From Caldisericota bacterium (GTDB lineage Bacteria > Caldisericota > JANLFM01): 64,000 bases of DNA. Below, in pieces: positions 23,171 to 64,000 of this stretch. Location: positions 110,938-174,937 of the forward strand of contig JANLFM010000001.1 in the NCBI GenBank assembly GCA_024655865.1, read 5' to 3'. The position numbers and the translations under genes are program-made. Position 1 is the first letter of the stretch; every line of letters starts with the position of its first letter. The notes under the pieces are model-generated. The model ran no database searches. It saw only the letters and a list, made by a program, of their open reading frames with translations, and had not been told where the DNA came from.

Positions 23171-24337
23171 TTAGCCCACTACTGCTGGCTCGCGTACCAG
23201 CTCCCCTTTCTGGAATCTTTGGTAATTCAGACGGGTGATGTCATAACTCAGGGTTTCACCCAGGATCCATTCGGCCATCAGCTCGCCCACTACGGGGCCA
23301 AACATGAACCCGTGTCCGGAGCCACCGGCAGCAATATAAAGGCCCGGGACCTCATCGATGGGACCCAGAATGTGGTGCGCATCCGGAGTCATCTCGTAAA
23401 GGCCGGCCCACTGGCGCACGATGTTCACGCTCTTGAGCATGGGAAGAACGCTTGTGGCTGCCTGGCTCATTCGCTCCAGGAAGCGCCAGGTAGGAGAGAA
23501 GTCAAAATCTCTGGGGTCATGCCAGTGTGCCGGGTTTTCCGGTCCAATTCCCATGATGAAGGAGCCGTGTGGGCGCTGTTGAATGTAATAACCGATGGAG
23601 AAAGAGATCACCATAGGAGCGAAAGCCCTCTCCAGGGGTTCGGTAATTAAAATCTCATGCTTCTCTCCCCAGAGAGGAATTTCTACGCCAACTGTCTTCA
23701 TGAGGTGCGAGCTCCAAGCACCACAAGCCACGAGCACCTTCTCCCCTTCGATAAGCTCTCCGTTAACCTTTACCCCGCGGATTTTACCCCTCTCCTGAAC
23801 CAGCCCCTCCACTCTGGTCCACTCCCTGATCTCTACCCCTAACCTGCGAGCTGCCCTGGCATAGGCAAAGGTAGTATGCAGGGGATCGGCGTGTCCATCG
23901 CGCTGGTGGAATGTTCCTCCGTAAACCCCGTTTAAGTTAAGTTGAGGAAAACGGGCTATTATCTCCTCTACGGTTAAGATCTCGGTCATAATTCCCAGGC
24001 GATGCTGAACCTCCACCCTGGATTTCAGGTTTTCCCATTCCTTCTCACTATAAGCAAGAACGAGGTATCCTCCCTGCCAGAGTTCAATCTTGTCCTCGGG
24101 GTAGTCTAACTCTCGAGCGAGGTGCTCGAATTTATCCAGGCTGCGCTTCATCAGGCCGATGTTGAACTCAGTACCAAATTGGGCTCGAATTCCTGCAGCG
24201 CAGGAACCAGTGGAGCCCGCGGAGACGAACTCCTTTTCTAAAAGTAGGATCCTTCCCGCTTTCTTTTTGGCTAACTCGTAAGCGGTGGCCACTCCTGTAA
24301 TGCCCCCGCCCACGATGATGATGTCGTAAGTGCTCAT
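23171..24337 (-). CDS. FAD-dependent amine oxidoreductase (DAO family, dehydrogenase beta subunit)
   Basis: 388-aa DAO-family flavoprotein, catalytic subunit of the five-gene set 23171-26492. The FAD dinucleotide motif is IIIVGGGITGVATAYELAKK; the C-terminal AAGGSGHGFMFGPVVGELMAEWI is the second FAD contact. The closest families are sarcosine oxidase beta, dye-linked L-proline dehydrogenase beta and HcnC. Such enzymes oxidise secondary amines or amino acids such as sarcosine, proline or glycine. It is last in the operon, overlapping the BFD gene by 4 nt. The exact substrate cannot be read from the sequence. Confidence 0.88.
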   Translation of the reverse strand: MSTYDIIIVGGGITGVATAYELAKKKAGRILLLEKEFVSAGSTGSCAAGIRAQFGTEFNIGLMKRSLDKFEHLARELDYPEDKIELWQGGYLVLAYSEKEWENLKSRVEVQHRLGIMTEILTVEEIIARFPQLNLNGVYGGTFHQRDGHADPLHTTFAYARAARRLGVEIREWTRVEGLVQERGKIRGVKVNGELIEGEKVLVACGAWSSHLMKTVGVEIPLWGEKHEILITEPLERAFAPMVISFSIGYYIQQRPHGSFIMGIGPENPAHWHDPRDFDFSPTWRFLERMSQAATSVLPMLKSVNIVRQWAGLYEMTPDAHHILGPIDEVPGLYIAAGGSGHGFMFGPVVGELMAEWILGETLSYDITRLNYQRFQKGELVREPAVVG

Positions 24338-24612
24338 TTCCCCTCCTTGGCAAAAACCTTTAGTGGCGTAGCACGCAAAGGCGGCCGCACAACAGTGGGC
24401 CTCGTTTTGACTTCGTCAATGGGAACATTCAAGTGTTGGGCGAGCTCTCGAAGGACGAGGATCCTGCAGGTTTTCCCGCCGCAGGGTCCCATCCCTATTC
24501 TCAGGACGCGCTTGAGCTGATCCCAGGAGGTATACCCTTCCTTAATGGCGTTCCGCACATCCTCCAGGGTAATATCCTCGCAGCGACAGATAATCACCTT
24601 TTTAGGATCCAT
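24334..24612 (-). CDS. BFD-like [2Fe-2S] small subunit
   Basis: 92-aa protein starting at ATG 24612, chosen because GGAGGAG precedes it and because the longer reading would overlap the ferredoxin gene. Four cysteines in the BFD pattern, VIICRCED and GMGPCGGKTC, bind a [2Fe-2S] cluster. It corresponds to the small gamma-type subunit of archaeal dye-linked proline dehydrogenase complexes and to the domain fused in HcnB/SoxA. It relays electrons between the two flavin subunits. Confidence 0.88.
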   Translation of the reverse strand: MDPKKVIICRCEDITLEDVRNAIKEGYTSWDQLKRVLRIGMGPCGGKTCRILVLRELAQHLNVPIDEVKTRPTVVRPPLRATPLKVFAKEGK

Positions 24613-24613
24613 A

Positions 24614-25102
24614 TCATTCTCTCCTCCTGAAGAAGCGCACTTCCATAATCTTCTCTGGCGGCACGCTGATGCGCACAAGCGAGGTCTTGGTCTTCTTATC
24701 AATTCCGGGTAAGGAATAAACCCTTTCCACTCTTGCCTCACAAACCGCCCTCCCGTATCTGTCCAGGCCGTCCACGATCTCTCCCGGGTTGGGCAGGGGA
24801 ACGAACTCGTAGGCCAAGGTGATCAGCCCTCGATCTTCCTTCAACTCCATGAGGAAAATAGCTATCCCTGGGCAAGCGGCAACGCACAAGCCACATCCGT
24901 TGCATAATTCATGATTTATCCTAGGGGTGGAAACCAGGGTCTCCATGGTAATAGCTTTTGTGGGGCAGGAATAGACACAGGGATCGCAGGGGATATCCTG
25001 GTAGCATTCGTGCATGGCCACGGCCTTCTTACGCATGCGCTCTTCCGTGGGCATGCTCGTTTTTAAATTCTCAAAAGTAGGAACGCCGTCAACCTCGATC
25101 AT
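24614..25102 (-). CDS. 4Fe-4S ferredoxin-type electron-transfer subunit
   Basis: 162-aa protein from ATG 25102 (AAAAGGAGTG site). It has a degenerate first cluster region (CYQDIPCDPCVYSCP) and a clear second one (CNGCGLCVAACPG), then a beta-rich C-terminal domain. A ferredoxin of this kind is encoded with archaeal proline dehydrogenases and some sarcosine dehydrogenase operons, where it passes electrons onward. It is separated by 1-2 nt from both neighbours, consistent with a coupled complex. Confidence 0.85.
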   Translation of the reverse strand: MIEVDGVPTFENLKTSMPTEERMRKKAVAMHECYQDIPCDPCVYSCPTKAITMETLVSTPRINHELCNGCGLCVAACPGIAIFLMELKEDRGLITLAYEFVPLPNPGEIVDGLDRYGRAVCEARVERVYSLPGIDKKTKTSLVRISVPPEKIMEVRFFRRRE

Positions 25103-25104
25103 TT

Positions 25105-26187
25105 TTACACTCCTTTTGTATGGAGGCGCTCTAACCCCTGGCAAACCTTCTCGCTTAGGGAGGACCGCCGGAATTGAGTGAGAAGCATCTTCAGTTCATC
25201 AATTTCATCCTTGTTCACCTCATATCCTAAATCCAGGGCCGTTTGCAGTCCGGATATCCTTCCCTGGAGGGCAGCTGTGGTAGCCTCCTCAATTCCCGCA
25301 ACATCTCCGGCGACGAAAATTTCAGGATGGGAAGTGCGACCTGTTTCATCGTGCCAGGGAACAAATCCCCCCAGCTCCGGAATATAGTATTCCCTGACGC
25401 CAAGCTCGAAGAGGAGCTCGCTTAAGGGCATCAATCCCACCGCCAGAAGGACTACATCCACAGAGAAGGTCCTCTCGGTACCAGGAATGGGCTGAAATTT
25501 TTCGTCCACCCCGATGGTCTCCGCTCTCTCCACGTGTCCCTCTCCATAAACCCCGGTGATGGTCCTTTTCAAGAGAATGGGAACACCTGCCCTTTGAATC
25601 TTAGCGGCATGCACCCAGTAAGCTCCACCCAGGCGAGGAAGGATATCAATAATTGCTTCCACTTTAGCCTGAGCCTGGAGCAACTGGTAGGCCACGATCA
25701 CTCCTACGTTTCCCGAACCTACAATCAGGTATCTTTCTCCGGGGAGGACACCATAAACGTTCATCAGGGTCTGCACTGCGCCAGCACCATAAACTCCGGG
25801 ATAATCGTTGTTCTCGAAGGTAATCATGCGCTCAGAGGCTCCAGTGGCAATCACTACGCGTTTGGGCTTAATTTTGTAGAAATCCTCCAAATCAGCGGCT
25901 AACCAGATTCCGTCTTTATAGGCGCCAATTACTTCAAATCCTAAAAGGGTTCGAATGCGAGGGTGGTTTTGAATCTCACCTTCCCACTTTTGCGCCAGTT
26001 CAAATCCTCGAGCTCCTGCTCCGCGAGCTGCCCAGCCGAAAAACTTGTGAGTCTGTTTGACTAACTGACCTCCCAGGTTTTGAAATCGGTCCACCAGGAG
26101 AACGGTGGCTCCGGCATTGGCTGCAGCGAGTGCCGCGTTCATACCCGCAGGCCCCCCTCCAACCACCAGGACGTCTGGCTCGATCAT
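25105..26187 (-). CDS. NAD(P)/FAD-dependent oxidoreductase (dehydrogenase alpha subunit)
   Basis: 360-aa pyridine-nucleotide-disulphide oxidoreductase-like flavoprotein. The start at ATG 26187 overlaps the preceding 2Fe-2S gene by 4 nt. It has the FAD motif VLVVGGGPAGMNAALAAANAG and the nucleotide motif YLIVGSGNVGVIVAYQLLQA, and IFVAGDVAGIEEATTAALQG near the C-terminus. It matches HcnB/SoxA-middle and proline dehydrogenase alpha subunits, which pass electrons from the DAO subunit to an acceptor. It lacks redox-active cysteine pairs, as expected for that role. Confidence 0.88.
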   Translation of the reverse strand: MIEPDVLVVGGGPAGMNAALAAANAGATVLLVDRFQNLGGQLVKQTHKFFGWAARGAGARGFELAQKWEGEIQNHPRIRTLLGFEVIGAYKDGIWLAADLEDFYKIKPKRVVIATGASERMITFENNDYPGVYGAGAVQTLMNVYGVLPGERYLIVGSGNVGVIVAYQLLQAQAKVEAIIDILPRLGGAYWVHAAKIQRAGVPILLKRTITGVYGEGHVERAETIGVDEKFQPIPGTERTFSVDVVLLAVGLMPLSELLFELGVREYYIPELGGFVPWHDETGRTSHPEIFVAGDVAGIEEATTAALQGRISGLQTALDLGYEVNKDEIDELKMLLTQFRRSSLSEKVCQGLERLHTKGV

Positions 26188-26492
26188 TTGAGCACTCCCT
26201 TGTCTTTTTGAATTTCCACTTTCATCCCTTCCCTTAATGGCGTGATGCAAGTACGAATGTTTGGCTTGCCATCCACAACCATCAAGCAGGAGGAGCAATT
26301 ACCGATAGCACAGAAAAAACCACGAGGCCTGTGAAGGTTCACACTTTCCCTCATCTCATAGAAACCGTTGGCCACGAGAGCTGCAGCAATTGGCTCCCCT
26401 TCGTATCCCTCTACCTCTCGCCCTTCAAAAATGAATTTAACTTTTTTCTTGGGTGGGAAATTAAGGATAGGATGGACTGTGATCCTGCGCAT
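26184..26492 (-). CDS. [2Fe-2S] ferredoxin subunit (HcnA/SoxA N-terminal type)
   Basis: 102-aa plant-type 2Fe-2S domain with the spaced cysteines FCAIGNCSSCLMVV...TC of the HcnA / sarcosine oxidase alpha N-terminal family. It is the first gene of the five-gene dehydrogenase operon and overlaps the next by 4 nt. In HCN synthase and sarcosine oxidase this domain forms a tight complex with the flavin subunits. Confidence 0.88.
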   Translation of the reverse strand: MRRITVHPILNFPPKKKVKFIFEGREVEGYEGEPIAAALVANGFYEMRESVNLHRPRGFFCAIGNCSSCLMVVDGKPNIRTCITPLREGMKVEIQKDKGVLK

Positions 26493-43829: not shown

Positions 43830-45377
43830 GTGGAGAATGAGATTGAGATCAACGAGCAGTTCCAGAGAGCCCTGGATCTCCTGGAAAACACTTCCAAGGT
43901 GCTCTTCATCACCGGCAGGGCTGGAACTGGGAAGTCCACTCTTTTAAGGTATTTCAGGGAACACTCACACAAAAAATCGGTGGTCCTGGCACCCACCGGT
44001 GTGGCCGCCCTGAACGTCCAGGGCCAAACCATTCATTCCTTTTTCGGCTTCGATCCAGAAATCACGGTTCCTGAAGCACAGCGCATTGCGCGCATCATAA
44101 GCGAAAAGGAGCTCTACCGCAGGGTAGAGGTAATCATTATAGACGAGGTCTCCATGGTCCGTGCTGACCTCCTGGACTGCATAGATGTGTTTTTGAGGAC
44201 CATCAGGGGGAAAAATCTGCCTTTCGGGGGAGCGCAACTGGTTTTCATCGGGGATCTCTATCAGCTTCCTCCCGTCGTTAAAGGAGAGGAGGAGAAAATT
44301 CTTTCTTTTCAGTACCCAACCCCCTTTTTCTTTGACGCTCTGGTGATGCGGGAATAGGAGGAGCTGGAGAATATCGAGTTCGTGGAGCTGGAGAAAATTT
44401 ACAGGCAGGAAGATGAAGAGTTTATCAACATTCTCAATGCTATCCGCTCGCGGCGCATCACTCCGGAGATGCTCGAGCGCCTGAACTCCCGCTTTTTCCC
44501 ATATCCTGAGGAATTAGAAGAGGACCACATCGTACTCACTTCCACAAATCAGCAGGCCAACGAGATAAACTCTTCCCACTTGAATCGATTAAAAGGGAAA
44601 GAAAAAATCTACCAGGGCGTCCTGGAGGGAAACTTCGAAAAAAGGGATCTTCCTACGGAAACCGAGCTCGCTTTAAAAGAAAAAGCCAGGGTGATGTTCC
44701 TGGTCAACGATCCCTATGACCGCTTCGTGAACGGAACTCTGGGAACTGTGGTGGAGATTGGTAAGGAACTCATTGTGGTGACGGATGACGGGCTGGAGGT
44801 GGAATTAGAACCCTTTACCTGGGAAATGTACCGCTCCCGCTGGAACCCTGAGGAGGAGACGATCGAGAGGGAAATTATGGGGACATTCACGCAGATTCCC
44901 TTGCGCCTGGCCTGGGCAATTACCATTCACAAGAGCCAGGGAAAGACCTTCCCGCGAGTGATCATTGATCTGGGTAAGGGAGCTTTTGCTTCAGGACAGG
45001 TCTATGTGGCGCTGAGCAGGTGCACCTCCCTGGAGGGGATTATCCTGAAAAAGCCTATTCGCCTGAGGGACATTCGCATAGATTACCGGGTTGTGAGGTA
45101 CTTGACTAGATTGCAGGCGAAATTGTCTGAGCGGGAAATGCCATTTGAGGAGAAGGTGAGGATCCTCCAACAAGCTATCAGTAAGGGCGAGGAACTGGTA
45201 ATCATCTACCTCGATGGTAGTGGCGATAAATCCACGCGAAAGATCTTGCCCTTTTCTCTGGAAGAGACGGAGTACATGGGCAAAACATTTTTGGGGCTCT
45301 CCGCTTTATGCTATAAGAGGAACGCCAGAAGGATGTTCCGCGTCGACCGGATTATTAAAATTGAGAAGACAAATTAG
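43830..45377 (+). CDS. Pif1/RecD-like helicase with one in-frame UAG
   Basis: Superfamily 1B DNA helicase of ~515 codons. Motif I GRAGTGKST, motif II VIIIDEVSM, and motif III VFIGDLYQLPP lie before a TAG at 44355-44357. The same frame then continues without any shift through ELEKIYRQ, TSTNQQANEIN, ITIHKSQGKTF (motif V) and VYVALSRCTSLEGI (motif VI) to 45377. The UAG lies in a variable loop between motifs III and IV, and nothing else is broken. It could be a nonsense mutation, a suppressed codon or a sequencing error. The start is GTG 43830, 15 nt after the methyltransferase gene. Confidence 0.85.
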
Positions 45378-45611: not shown

Positions 45612-46600
45612 TTAAACTTCCTTTTCAGAACTGGCAAGAATTGGCTCGGGTTCATCCTCATCGTGATCGGGCAGTATTCTCTCCGCGTTCCTGATGACTG
45701 GAAATAAGTATCCGCTCAGTCCCGAAATCACCACGAGGAGGTTAAAGAGAAAGATCATCATGGCCATTCCCGAGCCCGGCCCTACTCCGAAAATTGAGCC
45801 AAAAGAACTGGCCAGTGAACCTCCCGGCTGGAACGCTGGTTCAAATACGTAATCCGCAAGAGGTCCGGCGATAAGCAAAGCGATGGGAGACACCACCTAT
45901 TCCTCCCGCAGCCTCGGCAGCCGCTAAAGCTGTGGCGTTACTTCCAGTTCGAGCCAGGATCATGGGGACAGCTACGGTCCAGGAAAAGCTGGAAAACAGG
46001 TTGCCAAAGAGAAAAATCAGTTGCAGGCCCAGAAGGCTGGGCTTGGAGAAAATATACCGGAATCCATACAGGGATTCCTTAAGCAGGGAACCCGCTCCCT
46101 CTATTCCCTCCTTTGAACGGGTAGGACTGGGAATGCGGGAAAAAATCAGGGTAGTAAGAGCGATTATCAGGGAGAAAAGGTCAATCAAAAAAATTGGGGC
46201 GATCCCCACAAACCCCATCAAGAAAACAGCCAGAACGGGAGCTAAAATTCCCGTTCCCGCCTCCGCCATGGTAACCAGAGCCGTGGCGCGGGAGTATTGG
46301 TGTTTGGGGATAAGAAGGGTCATGGCAGCGGAATAGGCGGGCCAGTGAAAGGCAGCAAATATCCCGGCAAAGGCGCCGAGGGCATGGACATGCCAGATCT
46401 CAAGGTTTCCCATCAAAAACAGGATAAAAATTACCAGAGTGGAAACTCCCATAGCGCTATCGGCAAGGGCAATAATAAGCTTTCTATTCCACCTGTCCAC
46501 CAGGGCTCCAGCAATGGGGCTCATGAAAATCTCGGGCCCAAAGTTCCCTTATTCCACAAATTCCATTTGAACGGCGAATCGCCAATTTGATTTCTGCTTG
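45612..46600 (-). pseudogene. MFS transporter with two deletions and a stop codon
   Basis: Fragments of one 12-helix major-facilitator protein in order: an N-terminal tail (NWRFAVQMEFVE) ending at TAA 46549-46551; then GALVDRWNRKLIIALADS, several helices, and PVLAVFLMGFVG to AAEAAGGIGG; then, in another frame, SPIALLIAGPLADYVFEPAF to the end. Compared with relatives, most of helices 1-2 is missing before GPEIFMSPIAG. A stretch of about 80 residues is missing at the 45885-45905 junction, where AGGIGG joins SPIALL. The closest relatives are macrolide-efflux-like permeases. Non-functional as read. Confidence 0.8.
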
Positions 46601-53838: not shown

Positions 53839-53875
53839 GCCACTGGTGAGGGAATCCCTCACCAGTGGCTGTTTT
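53839..53875 (+). terminator. Strong terminator after the DUF2193-like gene
   Basis: A perfect 14-bp stem (53839-53852 with 53856-53869) with an AAT loop is followed by TGTTTTTA. It lies 35 nt after the stop and makes the DUF2193-like gene monocistronic. Confidence 0.92.
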
Positions 53876-53983: not shown

Positions 53984-54862
53984 ATGAAAAACGTACTTAT
54001 TTACCTTGATACTGATAAAAGAGCCAGCCTTTTTGACATCCTTTTTTCCTACGATGTCGGGTATGATGTAGTGGTCCCACTGGGAGGGGTTACGGCTGAT
54101 GAAGTGAGAGCACTGGTTCAGGATGCCATGTTTCCCAGGGGACCGCAGGGAGCGAAATGCACCACCCTCTTCTTTGGCGGAAGCAACCCTGAGGAGGCCG
54201 AGGAGATGGCAGAAATTGCGAGGAAGACTATGTTCCCGCCCTTCCAGCTTTCCGTCGTTATCGACCCCAAAGGAGCATTCACCACGTCCTCTGCCATGAT
54301 CGCAAAAGCTGTGGAGGCCTTGAAAACCAGAAACGAAAGCCTTCAGGGTAAGAGGGCCCTGATCCTCGCCGGAACCGGACCTGTAGGAAGAATCGCCGCC
54401 AGGATCCTCGCAAAAGAGGGCGTGAATGTTTTCCTTACTTCCCGTTCAAGCAAAAAAGCTGAAGAAATCGCGGAAAAGGTAACTCAAAAGGTGGGAAAAC
54501 TCGTGAAAGGGGTAAAAGCGGAAACCCCGGAGGAAGTCTTCGCGCTGGCTCAAGATTGCGAGCTCCTCCTTTCCACGGGAGCTGCGGGAGTGGAATTAAT
54601 CCCCCAGAGTTATGTCGAGAAACTTTCTAAATGCCTTGTTGCTGTGGATGCTAACGCTGTCCCTCCCACTGGAATTGGCGGCGTCAATCCCGGCGACGAC
54701 AAGAAGGAAGTCGGGAAAGCACTGGCAGTTGGGGCGCTCGCCGTAGGCGGTTTGAGGAACAAGATCGCACGGAAAATGCTCCAGGTGGCAATGGAAACCG
54801 GGGGATCTTTCCTCGATTACGAAAGCGGGTACAAATTTGCAAAGGAACTGGTGGGGTTTTAG
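53984..54862 (+). CDS. mtdB: NAD(P)-dependent methylene-tetrahydromethanopterin dehydrogenase
   Basis: Interconverts methylene- and methenyl-H4MPT with NAD(P). ATG 53984 follows GGAGGTG; a TTG at 53972 lies upstream of that site. The 292-aa protein (numbered here from the TTG) opens with YLDTDKRASLFDILFSYDVG, the C1-carrier-binding region, has PLGGVTADEVRALVQDAMF as in MtdA/MtdB, and a Rossmann motif ILAGTGPVGRIAARILAKEG followed by TSRSSKK, which favours NADP. It is unlike the F420-dependent archaeal Mtd. First gene of the C1 operon, 15 nt before the ATP-grasp gene. MtdA and MtdB cannot be separated with certainty by eye. Confidence 0.88.
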   Translation: MKNVLIYLDTDKRASLFDILFSYDVGYDVVVPLGGVTADEVRALVQDAMFPRGPQGAKCTTLFFGGSNPEEAEEMAEIARKTMFPPFQLSVVIDPKGAFTTSSAMIAKAVEALKTRNESLQGKRALILAGTGPVGRIAARILAKEGVNVFLTSRSSKKAEEIAEKVTQKVGKLVKGVKAETPEEVFALAQDCELLLSTGAAGVELIPQSYVEKLSKCLVAVDANAVPPTGIGGVNPGDDKKEVGKALAVGALAVGGLRNKIARKMLQVAMETGGSFLDYESGYKFAKELVGF

Positions 54863-54877
54863 GCAATTATAGAAAAA

Positions 54878-56050
54878 TTGCGCATCCTGATTACGGGTTT
54901 TTCAACCAGAGGGATTGCGGAAGCCGCAGTAAGGAGTGGATATTCTGCGGTAACCATCGATTTCTTTGGCGATTACGATCAGCGCTTGCTTGTGAAGAAT
55001 TACTCCTTAATGCGGGACTTTGGACTCTCCTTTTCTACAAAAAACATTTTGCAGGTTTCAAGCAAAATCAAAACGGAAGCCGATGCTCTGGTCTACATTT
55101 CCCCCTTTGAGAACCATCCCGGGGACGTGCAGAGAATGAGCCGCGGTCGCATGCTCCTGGGGAACGCTCCGGAATCATTGAGAAAAGTACGCAACTGGCG
55201 CCTTATCCGTTCTTTCTTAAAGGAAGAGGGTATCGGTTTTCCGGAAACCATCTTCACGGGGGAGACGCTCCCCCAGTCCGGAACCTGGGTAGTAAAACCG
55301 GTAAAAAGCGGCGGTGGTCATAGGATTAAACTCTGGCAGGGTGAACGGCTGAAAAAGGGATACTTTCTGCAAAAGCTGGTAAATGGCATTCCTTGCTCAG
55401 CAGTTTTCGTAGCCAATGAAGAAAAAAGCGTGCTCCTGGGAATCACGGAGCAGTTAATCGGAAGGCCCGAATTAGGGTCCAGGGGGTTTACCTGGTGCGG
55501 CAACATTACCCCTGTTGAACTGGATAAAGAAGCCCTTGAGACTTTAGTTACAAGAATTGATGAGATCGCTTTTAAGCTAACCAAGTTCTTCGGGCTCAGG
55601 GGCATTAACGGCTTCGATTTCATTCTCTCCGAACCAGATAACGCACCCGTCCTTGTGGAAATCAATCCCAGGTATCCAGCTTCCGTGGAAATAATTGAAG
55701 CAGCTTTTGGCCTTCCCGTCTTCGACATCCATGTCAGGGGATGCCTGGGAAAGCTTCCAGATTTCTCTCTGGGCGAGCGACTTAATAACCCTCGTTATTA
55801 CGGGAAAGCTATTGTCTATGCGAAGGAAGACGTGAGAATTCCTCCTGAGGCCGCTTATTGGGTTCTTTTAAAAAGAAAGGACGTACCCTTTCCGGGCGAA
55901 ACTATCAGGAAAGGGCACCCTATCTGCACTGTGTTTGCCACCGGCGAGACGAGAGAGGAATGTTGGAACGCTCTTTTGACTGAGGCGGGGAAATTAGAAG
56001 CAGAACTCAAACCCTGCCTTATCTTGACATCCAAGGAGAAAGAAGAATGA
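54878..56050 (+). CDS. ATP-grasp ligase of the H4MPT/methanofuran cluster
   Basis: 390-aa ATP-grasp protein starting at TTG 54878. ATP-binding segments are WVVKPVKSGGGHRIKLWQGE and FLQKLVNGIPCSAVFVANEE; the Mg-binding end is LVEINPRYPASVE. ATP-grasp proteins of this kind occur in bacterial H4MPT gene clusters and resemble tyramine-glutamate ligase MfnD, which acts in methanofuran synthesis. That makes cofactor biosynthesis the best guess. Its stop overlaps the fwdD start by 4 nt. Confidence 0.75.
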   Translation: MRILITGFSTRGIAEAAVRSGYSAVTIDFFGDYDQRLLVKNYSLMRDFGLSFSTKNILQVSSKIKTEADALVYISPFENHPGDVQRMSRGRMLLGNAPESLRKVRNWRLIRSFLKEEGIGFPETIFTGETLPQSGTWVVKPVKSGGGHRIKLWQGERLKKGYFLQKLVNGIPCSAVFVANEEKSVLLGITEQLIGRPELGSRGFTWCGNITPVELDKEALETLVTRIDEIAFKLTKFFGLRGINGFDFILSEPDNAPVLVEINPRYPASVEIIEAAFGLPVFDIHVRGCLGKLPDFSLGERLNNPRYYGKAIVYAKEDVRIPPEAAYWVLLKRKDVPFPGETIRKGHPICTVFATGETREECWNALLTEAGKLEAELKPCLILTSKEKEE

Positions 56051-56388
56051 AAAGCTGGAAATTCTTGTTAATTACGGGCCGCAGCTTAAAACAGGGGCAA
56101 GCGGCCGAACAAGGAAAGTTCTCCCCGGAATACATTAATGAGACCACTACCGTAGAGATTGGTAAAGAGGACGCCGAAAAACTCGGGTTAAGTGATGGTA
56201 TGGAAGTAAAGTTAAAAAATACCTGCGGGGAGGGCATCTTTCATGTGCGGATCTCTCAGGGGTTGCCCTCCGGAATCCTGTTCATCCCCTACGGCCCTTC
56301 AGCTAACTTACTCATTCCCGCAGAGACCGGAGGCACCGGAATGCCCGGTTGCAAAGGGATTGATGTAGAACTTTTGAAGGAGAGATAA
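56047..56388 (+). CDS. fwdD: Formylmethanofuran dehydrogenase subunit D (molybdopterin-binding)
   Basis: 113-aa protein matching FwdD/FmdD, the molybdopterin-dinucleotide-binding domain that is a separate subunit in archaeal enzymes. Motifs: LLITGRSLKQGQAAEQGKFS at the start, and LPSGILFIPYGPSANLLIPAETGGTGMPGCKG in the C-terminal half (long run given by its key blocks GPSAN and TGMPG). Bacterial methylotroph Fhc complexes lack this subunit, so its presence argues for a Mo- or W-containing enzyme. It abuts fwdB with no gap. Confidence 0.85.
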   Translation: MKSWKFLLITGRSLKQGQAAEQGKFSPEYINETTTVEIGKEDAEKLGLSDGMEVKLKNTCGEGIFHVRISQGLPSGILFIPYGPSANLLIPAETGGTGMPGCKGIDVELLKER

Positions 56389-57657
56389 ATGGAAACTATA
56401 AGTGCAACCTGTCCGTTTTGCGGATGCCTTTGCGATGATATCCAGATTGTTGTGGAGAATGGGAAAGTGCTGGAGGTGAAAAATGGGTGCAGCATCTCTA
56501 AGACTTTGTTCACCCACCATGATCCGGATGATCTGGTACCGCAAATTGAGGGCAAGAAAGCGAGCCTGGAGGAAGCTCTTGATAGGGCAGCCTCCATCAT
56601 CCGCCAGGCTCGCTTTCCGCTCGTGTTTGGGCTTTCCATGACAAGCTGCGAAGCCCAAAGGAAGGCTGTGGAACTTGCGGAGTTCATCGGAGGGAATATC
56701 GACAGCACTTCAACGTTCTGCCATGGTCCCACAACACTTGCCATGCAATCGGTTGGGGAACCAACCTGCACCCTTGGAGAGATTAAAAATCGAGCGGACC
56801 TGGTGGTATTCTGGGGATGCAACCCGGTGGAGGCCCACCCAAGGCACATTGCCAGATATTCGGTGTCACCGAAGGGGTTGTTCAACCCTGCCGGGAGGAG
56901 AGGAAGAACCGTGGTAACGGTGGATGTAAGGGCTACCCCTACAGCTCGGGTCTCGGATATTTTCCTCCAAATCCAGCCTCACAAAGACTACGAGGTATTT
57001 GAGGTGCTCCGGGCTCTCCTTAAGGGAAAAGACCTGCGCATTGACAGTGTGGGCGGAATCCCCCTTGATGCCCTGAAAGACCTGGTGAACAAAATGAAGA
57101 GCTGCAAATTCGGGATCATTCTCTTCGGCATGGGTTTGACGATGACCAGGGGCCGACACCTGAATATAGAGGCTGCCATCTCGCTCGTTCGAGACCTCAA
57201 CCAGTTCACCAAGTTCCTGATTATCCCGATGAGAGGGCACTATAACGTCACTGGAGCAGATGCTGTGCTCACCTGGCAGACAGGATACCCCTACGCTTTA
57301 AACTTCAGCCGTGGTTATCCACAATATAATCCAGGAGAATTTACTACCGTTGACCTTTTGCGCAGGAAGGAAGTGGACGCGGCTTTAATCCTTGCATCAG
57401 ATCCCATGGCCAGTTTGCCCCGCCAGGCATCGAGTTATCTGGAAGAAATTCCTTTTGTAGTGCTGGATTGCAGGAAAAGCTATTCTGCCAGTTTCGCTAC
57501 CGTTTTTATACCTGTGGCTGCTTCAGGAGTGAGCATCTCCGGGACCGCCTATCGCATGGATGGTGTTCCCGTCCTTTTAAAAAAGGTCCTGGATTCCCCG
57601 CACCCCACGGATGAACAAGTTCTGGATGGCATACTCAAGAGGTTAAGGCAAAGATGA
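56389..57657 (+). CDS. fwdB: Formylmethanofuran dehydrogenase subunit B (Mo/W and Fe-S catalytic subunit)
   Basis: 422-aa molybdopterin oxidoreductase-type subunit. The [4Fe-4S] ligands are intact: CPFCGCLCDD gives C8, C11 and C15, and C34 lies in NGCSI. The metal-ligand motif is TFCHGPTTLA (C111-H112), at the position of Cys118 in the Methanothermobacter wolfei tungsten enzyme; Cys, not Sec, is used here. In methylotrophic FhcB these redox sites are lost, so this protein should be a real dehydrogenase catalysing CO2 + methanofuran to formyl-methanofuran or the reverse. It overlaps fwdA by 4 nt. Confidence 0.9.
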   Translation: METISATCPFCGCLCDDIQIVVENGKVLEVKNGCSISKTLFTHHDPDDLVPQIEGKKASLEEALDRAASIIRQARFPLVFGLSMTSCEAQRKAVELAEFIGGNIDSTSTFCHGPTTLAMQSVGEPTCTLGEIKNRADLVVFWGCNPVEAHPRHIARYSVSPKGLFNPAGRRGRTVVTVDVRATPTARVSDIFLQIQPHKDYEVFEVLRALLKGKDLRIDSVGGIPLDALKDLVNKMKSCKFGIILFGMGLTMTRGRHLNIEAAISLVRDLNQFTKFLIIPMRGHYNVTGADAVLTWQTGYPYALNFSRGYPQYNPGEFTTVDLLRRKEVDAALILASDPMASLPRQASSYLEEIPFVVLDCRKSYSASFATVFIPVAASGVSISGTAYRMDGVPVLLKKVLDSPHPTDEQVLDGILKRLRQR

Positions 57658-59288
57658 TTCGCATAACCAAAGGAAAAGTATATGACCCGATAAATGGCAT
57701 CAACGGCAAGGAATTAGATATCTGGGTTGATGGGGGAAAAATCGTTCAGGTCGGTGACGCCCCGGATCTCGTTGCCGAGCGCATAATTGATGCCGAAGGT
57801 TGCATCGTAATGCCGGGAGGAATAGATATCCATTCCCATATTGCTGGGGGTAAAGTCAATCTTGGCAGGAAACTGAGGCCAGAAGATCATCGCAAGGACG
57901 TTGTGCCCAGAACAGAGACAACCCGCTCCGGAGTGGGCCACTCCATTCCTTCCACTTTCGTTACCGGTTATCGGTATGCGCAAATGGGTTACACCATGGT
58001 CATGGAAGCTGCGATGCCTCCATTAACGGCAAAACACACTCACGAGGAATTGCACGACATTCCTATAATTGACAAGGGCTCCTATACCCTGATGGGAAAC
58101 AACCACTTCATTTTAAAGTTCATCGAAAAGGGTGAAATTGAGAAAGTGAAGTCCTTCATCTCCTGGTTATTGAAAACCACCAAGGGTTATACGATCAAAA
58201 TCGTCAATCCCTGTGGGGTCGAAAGCTGGAAGTGGGGGAAAAATGTGGAAAACATTGACCAGCAGGCTGCCGATTACGCCGTCACCCCAAGACAACTGAT
58301 TTCCATTTTGTCCCAGATAGCGGATGAGCTCGGTCTCCCCCACTCCATCCACCTGCACTGTAACAACATCGGAGTTCCGGGAAACTACGAAACCACCGTT
58401 GAATCGATGAAGGCCACGGGTACAAACAGAGTCCACGTCACTCATGCTCAGTTTAATAGTTACGGAGGAAAGGGCTGGGCTGATATCCACTCAAAAGCTC
58501 GGGAGGTCGTCGAGTACGTAAATGAGCACCCAAACGTCACTTTTGATGCTGGGCAAATCGTGTTCGGCGATACCACAACCATGACCGCCGATGGACCATG
58601 GCAGTATCGTTTATATCTTTTATCGGGAAACAAGTGGGTCAACGCCGATGTGGAAATGGAGACCAGTGCTGGTATCGTACCCTATACCTTCCGCAAGAAA
58701 AGCCTGGTCAATGCCGTCCAGTGGGCAATTGGTCTGGAACTAATGCTTCTCGCCGAGGATCCCTGGAGGGCGTTCATGACCACTGACCATCCAAATGGGG
58801 GGCCCTTCACCTTCTATCCCCAGATCATCAAACTCTTAATGAGCAGAGCCGCAAGGGAAGAGATGATTGCTCAACTTCCCAGGAGAGCTCTCGAAAGGAT
58901 CTCTCTTCCCCAAATTACCAGAGAATACTCCCTTTACGAGATAGCGATAATTACCAGAGCTGCTCCCAGCAAGCTTCTCGGGTTACACCAGAAGGGGCAT
59001 CTGGGTGTCGGGGCGGATGCGGACATCGCTATTTACAGGGAAAACCCTGACGTTGAGAAAGTGTTCTCTTCCGTCCAGTATTTGCTCAAAGATGGGGAGG
59101 TCGTGGTAGAAAACGGCATTGTGCTCAAAAGCACCTCGGGGAGAATCCTCTATGTGGATCCCGGGGAAGAAGGAGATATTGAGGAATACATCCGTGAGGA
59201 GTTCGAGAAGTTCTACACAGTCACTCTGGATGGCTATGGAGTTCCTGAAAATTACCTGGAGCGGGGTGAATGCGTATCATGTGGATAA
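57654..59288 (+). CDS. fwdA: Formylmethanofuran dehydrogenase subunit A (amidohydrolase)
   Basis: 544-aa dinuclear-zinc amidohydrolase that condenses or hydrolyses formate and methanofuran. Metal ligands fit the family: H60-x-H62 (DIHSHIAGGK), the carboxylated Lys K182 (TIKIVNP), His in SIHLHCNNIG (H233/H235), and Asp378 in TTDHPNGG. In the archaeal structure a long internal tunnel carries formate from subunit B to this site, so a complete A+B+D set implies the same route. Its last 19 nt overlap the ftr gene. Confidence 0.95.
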   Translation: MIRITKGKVYDPINGINGKELDIWVDGGKIVQVGDAPDLVAERIIDAEGCIVMPGGIDIHSHIAGGKVNLGRKLRPEDHRKDVVPRTETTRSGVGHSIPSTFVTGYRYAQMGYTMVMEAAMPPLTAKHTHEELHDIPIIDKGSYTLMGNNHFILKFIEKGEIEKVKSFISWLLKTTKGYTIKIVNPCGVESWKWGKNVENIDQQAADYAVTPRQLISILSQIADELGLPHSIHLHCNNIGVPGNYETTVESMKATGTNRVHVTHAQFNSYGGKGWADIHSKAREVVEYVNEHPNVTFDAGQIVFGDTTTMTADGPWQYRLYLLSGNKWVNADVEMETSAGIVPYTFRKKSLVNAVQWAIGLELMLLAEDPWRAFMTTDHPNGGPFTFYPQIIKLLMSRAAREEMIAQLPRRALERISLPQITREYSLYEIAIITRAAPSKLLGLHQKGHLGVGADADIAIYRENPDVEKVFSSVQYLLKDGEVVVENGIVLKSTSGRILYVDPGEEGDIEEYIREEFEKFYTVTLDGYGVPENYLERGECVSCG

Positions 59289-60166
59289 ATGGAGTAGAAA
59301 TTGAAGATACCTTTGCCGAGGCCTTCAAAATGTATGCCGCGAGGATCATCGTCACGGCCGTTAACCGCCAATGGGCTTTGGAAGCAGCAACCAAGTTATC
59401 CGGCTTTGCCACCTCCATCATCGCTTGCGGATGTGAGGCAGGAATAGAAGCGGAAATTTCTCCGGAAGAGACTCCCGATGGTCGTCCCGGGGTATCTGTG
59501 CTCCTCTTTACCATGGGGAAAAAGGGAATGGAGGAACAACTGCTTAATCGCATCGGCCAGACAGTTATGACCTGCCCGACAACTGCCTGCTTTAACGGAG
59601 TAACCTCCCAGGAAAAGGTTAAGGTCGGCGGAAAACTGAGGTACTTCGGAGATGGTTTTCAAATAAGCAAGCTTCTTGGGGAAAGAAGGTTCTGGCGAAT
59701 CCCGGTCATGGAAGGAGAATTTCTGGTGGAGGACTATTTCGGGATCCAACCAGCGGTGGGGGGAGGAAATTTTCTCATCCTGGGGGAAACTCCGGAGCAA
59801 ACCCTGAAGGCGGCGGAGAGAGCTGCCGAGGCTTCAAGGAGTGTCAAAGGGGTAGTGCTGCCTTTCCCGGGTGGGATCGTCAGAAGTGGAAGTAAAGCGG
59901 GCTCCAGATACAAATTTCTGCGCGCCTCCACCAACACGGCTTTCTGCCCCACGATCAGGGAGCAGGTGAAATCCGAACTCCCACCTGGAGTGAATTGTGT
60001 CCTGGAGATAGTCATCGATGGCCTGGATGAGGAAGTTATCCGGCAATCGATGAAGCGCGGCATTGAAGCAGCCTGTATCGAGGGCATAAAGAGGATTTCC
60101 GCAGGAAATTATGGGGGTAAGCTTGGTCCCTTCCATTTTTATCTCCATGAATTATTCAAACAATGA
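59270..60166 (+). CDS. ftr: Formylmethanofuran:H4MPT formyltransferase (Ftr/FhcD)
   Basis: 298-aa enzyme moving the formyl group between methanofuran and N5 of H4MPT. Family motifs include NGVEIEDTFAEAFKMYAAR near the start, FATSIIACGCEAGIE, the TCPTTACFNG segment, and LRASTNTAFCPTIREQVKS, a conserved C-terminal-lobe block. Start at ATG 59270 or ATG 59279; both follow GGAG and lie inside the 3' end of fwdA. It ends overlapping fwdC by 4 nt. Encoded within the fwd genes as in methylotrophic bacteria, where it is part of the Fhc complex. Confidence 0.95.
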   Translation: MRIMWINGVEIEDTFAEAFKMYAARIIVTAVNRQWALEAATKLSGFATSIIACGCEAGIEAEISPEETPDGRPGVSVLLFTMGKKGMEEQLLNRIGQTVMTCPTTACFNGVTSQEKVKVGGKLRYFGDGFQISKLLGERRFWRIPVMEGEFLVEDYFGIQPAVGGGNFLILGETPEQTLKAAERAAEASRSVKGVVLPFPGGIVRSGSKAGSRYKFLRASTNTAFCPTIREQVKSELPPGVNCVLEIVIDGLDEEVIRQSMKRGIEAACIEGIKRISAGNYGGKLGPFHFYLHELFKQ

Positions 60167-61008
60167 GCGGGGTTGGAGAAATGAATGAGATCTTATTGAG
60201 ACCAAAAGTTGAATTCGACGTCCCGGTGGAAGCTGAGGTCATTTCGCCAGACCTCTTCGCTGAAAAAAGCCACGAGGAGATTGGAAGCCTGCCTGTTTTT
60301 TTAGGCAACAGGAAAATGTGCCTGAAGGACCTATTCGAAATAGAAGGTCAGTCCTCAACGAACATTGTCCTGGAGGGCGACTTTTCCCGGGTGAAAAAAA
60401 TCGGTTACGGCATGTCTCGAGGGAAAATTCACATTAAAGGTAACGTGGGAATGCACACCGGAGCCACTATGAAAGGCGGGGAAATCATCGTTGAGGGTGA
60501 CGCTATGGACTGGCTGGGTGCCGAAATGAACGGCGGATTGATTTGGGTTAAGGGCAGTGTTGGCCACTTCGCGGGAGCATCCTACTGGGGGAGTAAGCAT
60601 GGAATGAATCGGGGCATGATCCTGATCGAGGGAAATACCGGAAACGAAGTAGGAAAGAAAATGCGCAGGGGCACAATCGCCATAAAGGGAAAAACGGGAG
60701 ACTTTTTGGGAGTAGGTATGATCGGAGGAACTATCCTTGCCTTTTCTGAGACCGGAGAAAGACCAGGAGCCGAGATGAAGAGGGGAAGCATTGTTCTCTT
60801 TCTGGAAAACTGTACCAACCCTCCTCCGCTTCTTCCCACCTTCACTTATAACTGCACATACAGCCCTACCTTCCTTAGGGTTTACCTAAAAACCCTAAGG
60901 AAACTCGGATTTCCGGTTAAGGAAGAGTACATTTCTGGGAAGTACAGGCGCTATAACGGGGACATCGTGGAATTAGGGAAAGGAGAGATCCTGATTTATG
61001 AACCCTGA
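60163..61008 (+). CDS. fwdC: Formylmethanofuran dehydrogenase subunit C (beta-helix)
   Basis: 281-aa structural subunit. Repeats of G-x2-G-x3-G-x2-M-x2-G make a right-handed beta-helix like the C-terminal domain of glutamate synthase: GNVGMHTGATMKGG, GSVGHFAGASYWG, GNTGNEVGKKMRRG, GKTGDFLGVGMIGG. A C-terminal domain (NCTYSPTFLRVYLKTL) contacts the other subunits. Both Fwd and Fhc have it. The start is drawn at ATG 60163, though ATG 60181 (MNEILLRP) is also possible. It overlaps mch by 11 nt. Confidence 0.95.
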   Translation: MSGVGEMNEILLRPKVEFDVPVEAEVISPDLFAEKSHEEIGSLPVFLGNRKMCLKDLFEIEGQSSTNIVLEGDFSRVKKIGYGMSRGKIHIKGNVGMHTGATMKGGEIIVEGDAMDWLGAEMNGGLIWVKGSVGHFAGASYWGSKHGMNRGMILIEGNTGNEVGKKMRRGTIAIKGKTGDFLGVGMIGGTILAFSETGERPGAEMKRGSIVLFLENCTNPPPLLPTFTYNCTYSPTFLRVYLKTLRKLGFPVKEEYISGKYRRYNGDIVELGKGEILIYEP

Positions 61009-61939
61009 GCTCAGTTTAAACCTTCAAGCCGAAAAAATAGTTGAGCGAATGATCGAACAAGCCCCCATCCTGGGTATAACCGTCAAGGAACTGGGAAACG
61101 GTTCTAAAATTTTGGATGCTACTTTCGGAGGATACCGGGCCGGCAAATTGTTCGCAGAGGTGTGCATGGGTGGACTGGGAGAGGTTACCCTTACCTCTCT
61201 GGAATTCTCCTCCCTTTCCTTGCCGGGGGTGAGCGTCTCCGTTGAGTATCCCTTCCTTGCCTGTCTTGCTTCCCAATACGCTGGCTGGAGCATCAAGGTG
61301 GGCAGTTTCTTTGCCCTGGGCTCAGGACCGGCACGGGCTTTAGCGCGAGTAGAGAAACTTTTTGAGGAGTTGAAATACGAAGAGAGCGCGGACAGGGCGG
61401 TAATAGTTCTGGAATGCAGAAATGCCCCAAGCGAGGAGGTCGCGAATTATGTAGCTCAACAATGCCGGGTGAAACCTGAAAACCTCTATATCCTTTTTGC
61501 CCCCACAGCAAGCCTCGTGGGTTCCATCCAGATTGCCGCGCGAATAGTTGAAACAGGGATGCATAAGATGAAGGAATTGGGGTTCGACATCAAGAAAGTA
61601 CTCGCAGGCTACGGTACCTGCCCCATCGCCCCTATTGCTAAGGACGACCTCCAGGCTATTGGAAGAACTAACGACTGCGTTCTTTACGGTGGCAAGGCTT
61701 TCTATCTGGTAGAGGACAATGAGAACCTGATTGCCGATATAGTATCTGAAGTACCCTCCTCCGCTTCCCGAGATTACGGAGCCCCCTTCCTGGAGTTATT
61801 CAATCGCTATGGAAATTTCTACGATATCGATCCCATGCTCTTCAGCCCGGCTGAGGTCTATGTGAACAACCTGACAAATGGAAAAACTTACCACGCAGGG
61901 CAACACAACCTGGAAATCCTTCAGAGATTGCTGAGTTGA
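60998..61939 (+). CDS. mch: Methenyl-H4MPT cyclohydrolase
   Basis: 313-aa enzyme interconverting methenyl-H4MPT and 5-formyl-H4MPT. Signatures: DATFGGYRAGKLFAEVCMGG-type N-lobe, SVEYPFLACLASQYAGWSI, FALGSGPARALA, and KVLAGYGTCPIAPIAKDDL with GRTNDCVLYGG. Archaeal-type Mch is unrelated to FolD. It overlaps both neighbours, so the cluster is translated as a chain. Placement between fwdC and the RimK-like gene completes the methylene-to-formyl path encoded here. Confidence 0.96.
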   Translation: MNPELSLNLQAEKIVERMIEQAPILGITVKELGNGSKILDATFGGYRAGKLFAEVCMGGLGEVTLTSLEFSSLSLPGVSVSVEYPFLACLASQYAGWSIKVGSFFALGSGPARALARVEKLFEELKYEESADRAVIVLECRNAPSEEVANYVAQQCRVKPENLYILFAPTASLVGSIQIAARIVETGMHKMKELGFDIKKVLAGYGTCPIAPIAKDDLQAIGRTNDCVLYGGKAFYLVEDNENLIADIVSEVPSSASRDYGAPFLELFNRYGNFYDIDPMLFSPAEVYVNNLTNGKTYHAGQHNLEILQRLLS

Positions 61940-62814
61940 AAATAGGAATACTGGGGCAAAGGAGAAGCTGGCACGTCCAGACTTTACAGGATGCCTTTTT
62001 AAGAAAAGGGGCCGTTTGCGATTTTCTCTCTATCACCCGTATCGTAGCTGGAATTTTCCAGAGACCCTATGCCTCTACCGAAGGGCGGATACTGGAGAGC
62101 TACGACGCTCTGGTTGTGAGAAGCATCCCCTCTGGATCGCTTGAGCAGATTATTTTCCGCGTGGACGTCCTGCACAGGCTGGAGAACCTTGGTGTCAAGG
62201 TAATCAATTCCGCCACTACCCTGGAAAGGAGCGTGGACAAGTATTACACCTCTTCTCTCCTTGAGGACGCCGGCATCCCTACTCCCCGCACTATAGTGGC
62301 GGAGCGCTTCGAAAACGCCATGGAAGCGTTCCTCCAATTTAAGGATGTTGTGGTCAAGCCCCTTTTTGGCTCGGAAGGGAAGGGAATTGTCAGAATCCAG
62401 GATGAGGATATGGCATACAGGGTATTCAAGGCTCTGGAGTTAGGAAATTACATCTTCTACATTCAGGAGTTTATCCCTCACCGAAACCGGGACATCAGGG
62501 TTTTCCTCGTTGGTGACGAACCAATAGCAGGAATGGTAAGGGAAAGCGATCTATGGAAAACCAATATCGCAAGGGGGGCTAAAGCCCAGGCCCTTGAGCT
62601 TACCACTACTCTGAAAGACCTCAGCATCAGAGCCGCCAAAATCCTGGGGGCATTTTATGCAGGAGTGGACATTCTGGAAAGCGAGGATGGGAAATTGTTC
62701 GTGACCGAGGTTAACGGGATTCCAGGCTGGCATGGCTTGCAGAGCACTACGGATATCAACATAGCTGAGCGCATAGCGGAACACGTGATTATGCTGACTC
62801 AGGAGCAAAGATGA
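61936..62814 (+). CDS. RimK/MptN-like ATP-grasp glutamate ligase
   Basis: 292-aa RimK-type ATP-grasp protein starting at TTG 61936, which overlaps the mch stop (TTGA). ATP-site segments are VVKPLFGSEGKGIVRI and FYIQEFIPHRNRDIRVF; the metal end is LFVTEVNGIPGWHGLQ. In archaea MptN adds glutamate to H4MPT to make tetrahydrosarcinapterin, and RimK-like genes recur in bacterial H4MPT clusters. Addition of glutamates to H4MPT or methanofuran is the likely role. It overlaps the next gene by 4 nt. Confidence 0.82.
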   Translation: MKIGILGQRRSWHVQTLQDAFLRKGAVCDFLSITRIVAGIFQRPYASTEGRILESYDALVVRSIPSGSLEQIIFRVDVLHRLENLGVKVINSATTLERSVDKYYTSSLLEDAGIPTPRTIVAERFENAMEAFLQFKDVVVKPLFGSEGKGIVRIQDEDMAYRVFKALELGNYIFYIQEFIPHRNRDIRVFLVGDEPIAGMVRESDLWKTNIARGAKAQALELTTTLKDLSIRAAKILGAFYAGVDILESEDGKLFVTEVNGIPGWHGLQSTTDINIAERIAEHVIMLTQEQR

Positions 62815-63689
62815 AAAAAGGTAATAAAGCCCGCCTGAGCGCAAAAGAGGTGTCACAATTAGCGCAAATTGCCTGTCTTTTGGAAGTCACTGCGGAGAAA
62901 CCCGGCAATGTCACCCGGTGGAAAGATGCCAGTGATATGGGCTATTTGGATTTTCTTTTAAGCGCCGTGGCTATAGCACCGGCCATCGAGAGCGCCAGGA
63001 ACAAAGCTGTGGGGGAGGTGATTTTGAAGGCCATCAGGGATACGCACCGCTTCACCTCTTTTAATACCAACCTAGGGATCGTGCTTCTTTTCGCCCCCAT
63101 AGCGAAAGCATATTTCTCTGGCAGTAACCTCAGGGATTCCTTGCATGGGGTTCTTTCTTCCCTCACCGTAGAGGACGCGCAGAAAACCTACGAGGCGATC
63201 AGGATCGCTAATCCAGGTGGAATGGGAAAAATCGAAAAGTATGATATCAGTCAGAAAGAAGTGGACATCAACTTAAAGAAGGCTATGGAATTAGCGCAGG
63301 ACAGGGACCTGATCGCCAAAGAGTATGTGACCGACTTCGAAATTACTTTTACCCTGGGAGTCCCAGAACTGATGAAAAACTGGAGGAAGTTAGGAAGCTT
63401 ATTGGATTCGATCGTACAAACCTTTCTCGTTATCCTCTCCCAAAATTGGGACTCCAAAATTTCCCGTACGCATGGGAAAAAAGTCGCCCAGGAAGTCACC
63501 TCCAGGGCAAATGAAATTCTCGAAGCAGGGGGAATTTATACTCCTCTTGGTAGGAATTTACTTACCCAATTCGATCTTTTTTTGAGAGAGAACAAACTGA
63601 ACCCCGGTACTACAGCAGATCTGGTCACGGCTTCTCTATTCGTGGCATTTCTTGAGGAGGGCCTCGAAGAATTCTTCAAAGAGCATTGA
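62811..63689 (+). CDS. CitG-like (triphosphoribosyl-dephospho-CoA synthase family) protein
   Basis: 292-aa all-helical CitG/MdcB-family protein. LLEVTAEKPGNVTRWKDASD matches the family's nucleotide-binding start, SFNTNLGIVLLFAPIAK its second motif, and the DAQKTYEAIRIANPGGMG segment also fits. No citrate or malonate lyase gene is near, so it is not expected to make the lyase prosthetic group. CitG-like genes are recurrent in H4MPT clusters of methylotrophs and methanogens, where a step in pterin or methanofuran cofactor assembly (ribosyl/phosphoribosyl transfer) is suspected. Confidence 0.82.
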   Translation: MKKGNKARLSAKEVSQLAQIACLLEVTAEKPGNVTRWKDASDMGYLDFLLSAVAIAPAIESARNKAVGEVILKAIRDTHRFTSFNTNLGIVLLFAPIAKAYFSGSNLRDSLHGVLSSLTVEDAQKTYEAIRIANPGGMGKIEKYDISQKEVDINLKKAMELAQDRDLIAKEYVTDFEITFTLGVPELMKNWRKLGSLLDSIVQTFLVILSQNWDSKISRTHGKKVAQEVTSRANEILEAGGIYTPLGRNLLTQFDLFLRENKLNPGTTADLVTASLFVAFLEEGLEEFFKEH

Positions 63690-63694
63690 ACCCG

Positions 63695-64000
63695 ATGGAT
63701 AAGCCTATAGAAGGCTATTACCTCGAATCGGTGGAGGGGTTTTTCTTTGCCGTAAAAGGGGTGATCCACCCTCCTTGTAGGATTTTCGCTATCTTAAGAT
63801 ACGCACCGGATGAAGCAGGAGAAAGGGTCAGAAAAGGAATCCGCTATCGCAGACTGTACGAGTTTGAAGAGCAGCAAGCCCTGCTTGAAAAGAAAAACCC
63901 TTCTTACCTATTATTTGATCCCATTTTGGGAACCTGGGTCCAGTGCGTTCCCAACGAGCTTATAGGAAAGATCCACAGTCCCCGCCTGAAGCTGGAGGAA
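63695..64000 (+). CDS. Unknown protein of the C1 operon, 3' end outside window
   Basis: ATG 63695 begins 5 nt after the citG-like stop; 102 codons are visible and the gene runs off the end. The start DKPIEGYYLESVEGFFFAVKG is followed by VIHPPCRIFAILRYAPDEAG and RVRKGIRYRRLYEFEEQ. This is like the N-terminal domain of a group of archaeal and bacterial nucleotidyltransferase-like proteins (F-AV-G ... LRY-PDE-G-R). The assignment rests on general resemblance only. Its position suggests another cofactor-assembly function. Confidence 0.5.
   Translation, partial: MDKPIEGYYLESVEGFFFAVKGVIHPPCRIFAILRYAPDEAGERVRKGIRYRRLYEFEEQQALLEKKNPSYLLFDPILGTWVQCVPNELIGKIHSPRLKLEE

Follow-up and report, generated by a model that had tools for sequence, protein, structure and literature searches.

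The fwd operon and its bacterial setting

The window analyzed in this study is a 64,000-nucleotide stretch (G000:C11:110938-174937) of the genome of an uncultured Caldisericota bacterium (GCA_024655865.1, hereafter G000; 1.82 Mb, 96% complete, 2.9% contamination). At 53984-64000 of the window, 11 genes run on the + strand with intergenic gaps of 15, -4, 0, -4, -19, -4, -11, -4, -4 and -4 bases. They encode, in this order, an MtdA/B-like dehydrogenase, an ATP-grasp protein, FwdD, FwdB, FwdA, Ftr, FwdC, Mch, MptN, a CitG-like protein and a nucleotidyltransferase-like protein (Table 1), i.e., the predicted subunits of a formyl-methanofuran (formyl-MFR) dehydrogenase together with enzymes for one-carbon (C1) units bound to tetrahydromethanopterin (H4MPT). 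This archaeal-derived gene set of an uncultured bacterium probably interconverts CO2 and a C1 unit on methanogen-type carriers. The original prediction had named mtdB, fwdD, fwdB, fwdA, ftr, fwdC and mch as overlapping or abutting genes, and each of them matched its family, with gaps of -19 to 15 bases. That list was incomplete, as mtdB and fwdD are separated by an ATP-grasp gene, and mch is followed by mptN, the citG-like gene and the nucleotidyltransferase gene. It was also correct that no FwdE, FwdF or FwdG polyferredoxin is encoded at the locus, as none was found in the window or its flanks.

The archaeal origin of the operon proteins raised the question of whether archaeal DNA had contaminated the assembly or the contig was a chimera, two possibilities that the original prediction had also recognized. 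Such an origin of the contig is extremely improbable and was ruled out: bacterial groEL, alr, alaS, dnaX and recR (named from their translations) share the contig with the operon, the nearest relatives of the operon are bacterial, and the whole operon with the same flanking genes is syntenic on a 493-kb contig of G001, another genome from this genus, which makes chance unlikely as well. When 54 genomes of the phylum were searched, an FwdB above the family cut-off was found in G000 and G001 alone.

Table 1. Genes of the operon and its upstream neighbor (window positions).
Feature	Position	Strand	Support and remarks
DUF2193 protein, 513 aa	52263..53804	+	PF09959 2e-230; conserved operon neighbor, kept in synteny in G001 and in operons of Chloroflexota, Synergistota and Bacillota
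NAD(P)-type methylene-H4MPT dehydrogenase, MtdA/MtdB family	53984..54862	+	PF09176 (Mpt_N) 3.5e-26; MtdA 1lu9 7.8e-50
ATP-grasp ligase	54878..56050	+	PF02655; same place in many bacterial operons
FwdD, 113 aa, molybdopterin dinucleotide-binding subunit	56047..56388	+	PF01568 6.8e-15; 8rja_D 1.5e-20
FwdB, catalytic subunit	56389..57657	+	TIGR03129 568 bits (cut-off 328)
FwdA, amidohydrolase subunit	57654..59288	+	TIGR03121 780 bits (cut-off 393)
Ftr, formyl-MFR:H4MPT formyltransferase	59270..60166	+	PF01913/PF02741, 1e-62 each
FwdC	60163..61008	+	TIGR03122 272 bits, over cut-off
Mch, methenyl-H4MPT cyclohydrolase	60998..61939	+	TIGR03120 402 bits; family match 1e-120; 1qlm 5e-100
MptN-like H4MPT:glutamate ligase	61936..62814	+	NF040720 291 bits, slightly below cut-off 350; TIGR00768 above cut-off
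CitG-like protein	62811..63689	+	PF01874 1.9e-67
Nucleotidyltransferase-like protein, 341 aa, 5' part	63686..64000	+	PF01909 1.8e-6; remainder in L032:3624-4649

Probable redox competence of FwdB

In the window FwdB, C8, C11, C15 and C34 align with the [4Fe-4S] cluster cysteines and are invariant with those of the solved structures 5t5i and 8rja, while C111-H112 aligns with the metal-ligand pair C118-H119 of M. wolfeii FwdB. The matches to active tungsten FwdB (8rja_B, 7.7e-132; 5t5i_B, 2.5e-130) were far stronger than that to FhcB of M. extorquens (6s6y_B, 1e-18). Of the 80 positions with a conservation of 95% or more across 82 FwdB rows with Cys or selenocysteine (Sec) as the ligand, 77 are kept in the window FwdB and 78 in its G001 counterpart, compared to 33-44 in FhcB of four proteobacteria, which have S or A-L in place of C-H, and 52 in a second FwdB of G001. 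The AlphaFold2 model of FwdB (predicted local distance difference test score, pLDDT, 88.8) matched active FwdB with Z of 51-53 over ~420 residues. Against FhcB (6s6y_B), Z was 32.5 and the alignment began only at model residue 50, because FhcB lacks the cluster domain. The FwdA motifs HSH, YTIK, HLHCN, VTH and TTD align with M. wolfeii FwdA and cover the catalytic His, Lys and Asp residues. G000 also contains two moaA-moaC-moeA clusters and MobA, so that the search for moa/moe genes that had been proposed returned moaA, moaC and moeA twice each.

The four N-terminal cluster cysteines, the Cys-His metal ligand, FwdD, FwdA with its catalytic motifs and FwdC, which are features of Fwd/Fmd, are thus found together. 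The features that define Fhc, i.e., an FhcB without ligand and cluster domain and the lack of FwdD, are not matched, as the window has all three. Because 77 of the 80 positions are kept and the fit to active tungsten FwdB is far better than that to FhcB, a redox-competent formyl-MFR dehydrogenase is the best reading of the sequence and the model. The retained residues, the presence of FwdD and the fold of the modeled FwdB with its N-terminal cluster domain are all in line with what had originally been proposed for this enzyme. Alternatively, FwdB may be a mere scaffold in a complex that hydrolyzes the formyl group to formate, as in Fhc. The gene order is similar to fhcBADC with Ftr inside, and a decay of this kind appears to have occurred in a second operon of G001, where W replaces C111 and FwdD is missing. 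Approximately unbiased (AU) tests on the placement of FhcB and the second G001 FwdB were undecided because of long branches, and a topology in which a single branch sets the window and FhcB apart together was not rejected (p 0.50). An Fhc-type dead enzyme is nevertheless improbable, and was rejected on residues, FwdD and fold, given the intact cluster and metal-ligand residues, the presence of FwdD, the conserved-position counts and the N-terminal cluster domain that precedes the region aligned with FhcB.

Like the archaeal tungsten FwdABCDFG (5t5i; Ca. Ethanoperedens, 8rja), the window encodes FwdA, FwdB, FwdC and FwdD with all catalytic motifs (FwdB identity 45-48%, fold Z 52). It differs from the archaeal system in its bacterial host, in the absence of the FwdF/G polyferredoxin or FwdI, and in the use of an NAD(P)-type MtdA/B where the archaeal system uses the F420-linked Mtd. 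It should be noted that the FwdF/FwdG subunit is not universal, as FwdI is found in place of FwdF in 8rja. With the FhcABCD of methylotrophs (6s6y), the window shares homologous A, B and C subunits and Ftr (D), the H4MPT carrier and the NAD(P)-linked MtdB, a dehydrogenase partner that the matches to the MtdA/MtdB family supported. In contrast, FhcB has neither the cluster domain nor the C-H ligand, no FwdD exists, and formate is released without redox chemistry.

Bacterial relatives and a second operon in the genus

When 84,980 species genomes were scanned with an FwdB alignment, 534 relatives were confirmed, of which the best 80 were analyzed. Bacteria accounted for 54 of these 80 (28 Planctomycetota, 8 Chloroflexota, 8 Bacillota, 4 Synergistota, 3 Acidobacteriota, 2 Actinomycetota and 1 unplaced). 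FwdD was found beside FwdB in at least 47 of the 54, which is a lower bound because contigs end, and the metal-ligand codon was either Cys or an in-frame TGA (Sec) in all 54. That 20 of the bacterial relatives have TGA as this ligand codon is an argument that the metal site is functional in the family. The hosts of the TGA-containing genes are Planctomycetota, Acidobacteriota, Moorella sulfitireducens and Desulfosporosinus lacus (loci L062, L076-L078, L084, L089, L091, L092, L094, L095, L099, L100, L102-L105, L107 and L110-L112), and the FwdB gene at L062 has an additional in-frame stop besides the ligand TGA.

In the FwdB tree, for which only the nearest 80 relatives were sampled, the bacterial rows (n = 57) formed a single clade beside archaeal Fwd (SH-like approximate likelihood-ratio test, SH-aLRT, 98). 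The window lies inside this clade and not within redox-dead FhcB, in agreement with the original prediction. Judged from sequence, the window Fwd is placed in a bacterial branch that would derive from Archaea.

Earlier work has described operons of this kind from several further bacterial phyla. Planctomycetes were found to have fmdDBAC with Sec, with homologs in Synergistetes, Firmicutes and Acidobacteria (PMC4807772). The fwd, ftr and mch genes were reported for Acetomicrobium hydrogeniformans (PMC6025917), and fwdDBA-ftr-fwdC with Cys118 and without FwdE/F/G for Hakubella (PMC7325909). A further study described 149 bacterial FwdB and a transfer from Archaea (PMC10100899). These reports appeared in 2016, 2018, 2020 and 2023. 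Given this literature and the FwdD-bearing Cys/Sec FwdB operons in at least six other phyla, the window operon is not an oddity, and the suggestion that it is a hybrid unusual for bacteria does not hold. The premise of that suggestion, that the bacterial system is FhcABCD without FwdD, is valid for the operons of proteobacterial methylotrophs but not for Bacteria at large.

The operons of Hakubella, Planctomycetes, Acetomicrobium, Chloroflexota, M. sulfitireducens and D. lacus have the same subunits as the window, including FwdD, a Cys/Sec ligand and no polyferredoxin, and often the same gene order. The order DUF2193-mtdB-ATP-grasp-fwdDBA-ftr-fwdC-mch-mptN-citG was found in complete or partial form in Chloroflexota, Synergistota, M. 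sulfitireducens, D. lacus and other Bacillota. The window differs in that its FwdB has Cys and not Sec, and in that Fae, MfnB, carbon monoxide dehydrogenase/acetyl-CoA synthase (CODH/ACS) and MetF were not found in G000. The window thus adds one further lineage to the bacteria with a seemingly working CO2-forming Fwd.

A second operon of G001 (L034; G001:C2:1-8860) is on an 8.9-kb contig of lower GC content (42%) and encodes an ATP-grasp protein, an FwdB-like protein, FwdA, Ftr, FwdC, MptN and MobA. The FwdB-like protein has W-L for C111-H112 and keeps the four cluster cysteines, and no FwdD is present in the operon. Every L034 protein has its closest relative in the window or in the main G001 operon, often by a wide margin (54 vs. 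47% for FwdA, 47 vs. 31% for MobA), and the AU test does not tell whether its FwdB belongs with FhcB. These sequences suggest that L034 arose in this lineage by a natural decay from an Fwd to an Fhc-like form and may represent an intermediate, although its assignment to the same cell is uncertain, given the short contig and a contamination of 6% for G001. The operon of the window is consistent with the idea that the metal-free Fhc of methylotrophs arose through the decay of Fwd enzymes of this type. Both states seem to coexist in G001, as a competent FwdDBAC and as a copy lacking FwdD and the metal ligand; if so, the step from Fwd to Fhc is testable inside one lineage.

Proposed electron partner and metabolic role

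No convincing ferredoxin-like gene was found near the operon in any of the 57 bacterial Fwd loci, including those of G000 and G001, while such genes are present in several archaeal loci. The lack of a co-encoded ferredoxin is a trait common to the bacterial Fwd branch. FwdF and FwdG were likewise absent from the window, its flanks and the 57 bacterial loci (the remainder of G000 was not searched), and a co-encoded polyferredoxin was therefore rejected as the partner. Without a polyferredoxin subunit encoded in the operon, the lone FwdB cluster would probably trade electrons directly with a soluble ferredoxin.

Searches of G000 by family found neither CdhC/ACS (PF03598), MetF (PF02219; the F420-type Mer was not searched) nor formyl-tetrahydrofolate synthetase (FTHFS). 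A full Wood-Ljungdahl pathway, or an H4MPT branch of it linked to CODH/ACS through a methylene-H4MPT reductase, was accordingly rejected for this 96%-complete assembly, and the CO2 fixation mentioned in the original prediction can mean only the supply of C1 units. Fae was not found in G000, G001 or the genomes of Hakubella, Moorella, Desulfosporosinus and Acetomicrobium, and formaldehyde oxidation was rejected as the role of the operon on these results. Of the other genes whose search had been proposed, that for beta-ribofuranosylaminobenzene 5'-phosphate (beta-RFAP) synthase was found in G000, with DUF447-like and FolK-like neighbors, in addition to the moa/moe genes; fae, MfnB and MetF were not. 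G000 also has the glycine cleavage proteins P, T and H and FolD. With MoaA, beta-RFAP synthase, FolD and glycine cleavage found and CODH/ACS, MetF, FTHFS, Fae and MfnB not found, the pathway appears, as far as searched, to join only CO2 and methylene-H4MPT.

In the proposed pathway, FwdB and FwdD would interconvert CO2 and formate at a Mo/W-bis-molybdopterin guanine dinucleotide (bis-MGD) center, FwdA would join formate to a furan carrier, and Ftr, Mch and MtdA/B would pass the C1 unit on to methylene-H4MPT, with the last step NAD(P)-linked. Given that glycine cleavage is present while MetF, CODH/ACS, FTHFS and Fae were not found, C1 units of amino acids would most likely be oxidized to CO2, yielding reduced ferredoxin and NAD(P)H, or the reverse would supply C1 units, with oxidation slightly preferred. 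We assign a probability of roughly 0.7 to a genuine FwdABCD-type dehydrogenase that works with Ftr, Mch, MtdA/B and partial H4MPT synthesis in amino-acid C1 oxidation or its reverse. From the genes, motifs, fold, synteny and relatives, we infer the metal, activity, direction, electron partner and carrier. Several points weigh against this assignment: the AU tests were undecided; the activity of the Fwd complex is predicted and the link from amino acids to methylene-H4MPT is putative; the absences rest on a 96%-complete assembly; and neither G000 nor G001 yielded MfnB, the enzyme that forms the furan ring of methanofuran, though the operon needs a formyl carrier.

The same enzymes could also run reductively, with reduced ferredoxin and CO2 giving methylene-H4MPT as a C1 source for biosynthesis. 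This direction is possible but doubtful: it is consistent with the missing FTHFS and Fae and with the presence of FolD and glycine cleavage, yet methylene-tetrahydrofolate is obtainable from glycine cleavage alone. As for the carrier, MfnB was found in the Moorella, Desulfosporosinus, Acetomicrobium and Hakubella genomes. In the Caldisericota bacterium, the formyl carrier may be taken up, made by another route or be a different molecule. It is conceivable, though unlikely, that the dehydrogenase of the genus, in both genomes of which MfnB was not found, uses a formyl carrier made outside the canonical methanofuran route, that its C1 pathway ends at methylene-H4MPT and feeds no methanogenesis, acetogenesis or formaldehyde methylotrophy, and that DUF2193 is an unrecognized enzyme there.

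Among the other operon genes, the ATP-grasp ligase scored just 20 bits with the MfnD model (cut-off 400) and probably functions in H4MPT or methanofuran cofactor synthesis; the CitG-like protein probably has a cofactor synthesis role, too. The nucleotidyltransferase-like gene is common to Chloroflexota and Bathyarchaeota operons. Downstream of the operon, on the opposite strand (L032:5858-7576), are a MobA-like nucleotidyltransferase gene and a second CitG-like gene.

Of the genes flanking the operon, that for DUF2193 is the best conserved (94% within the genus, 76-81% for Synergistota and Chloroflexota); it also occurs in methanogens and encodes a C-terminal cysteine motif. A strong terminator-like hairpin at 53839-53869, 3' of this gene, separates it from the operon, and the gene is likely a separate transcription unit. 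The model of the protein is all-helical (pLDDT 76) and had no clear match in the PDB (best Z 3.6), which does not establish a new fold. Elsewhere in the window, a cluster at 23171-26298 comprises genes for a ferredoxin-like protein and two FAD-dependent oxidoreductases, similar to amine/amino-acid dehydrogenase sets and a possible C1 source, and a helicase-like gene (43830-45377) and an MFS transporter gene (45612-46524) are each seemingly split into two reading frames.

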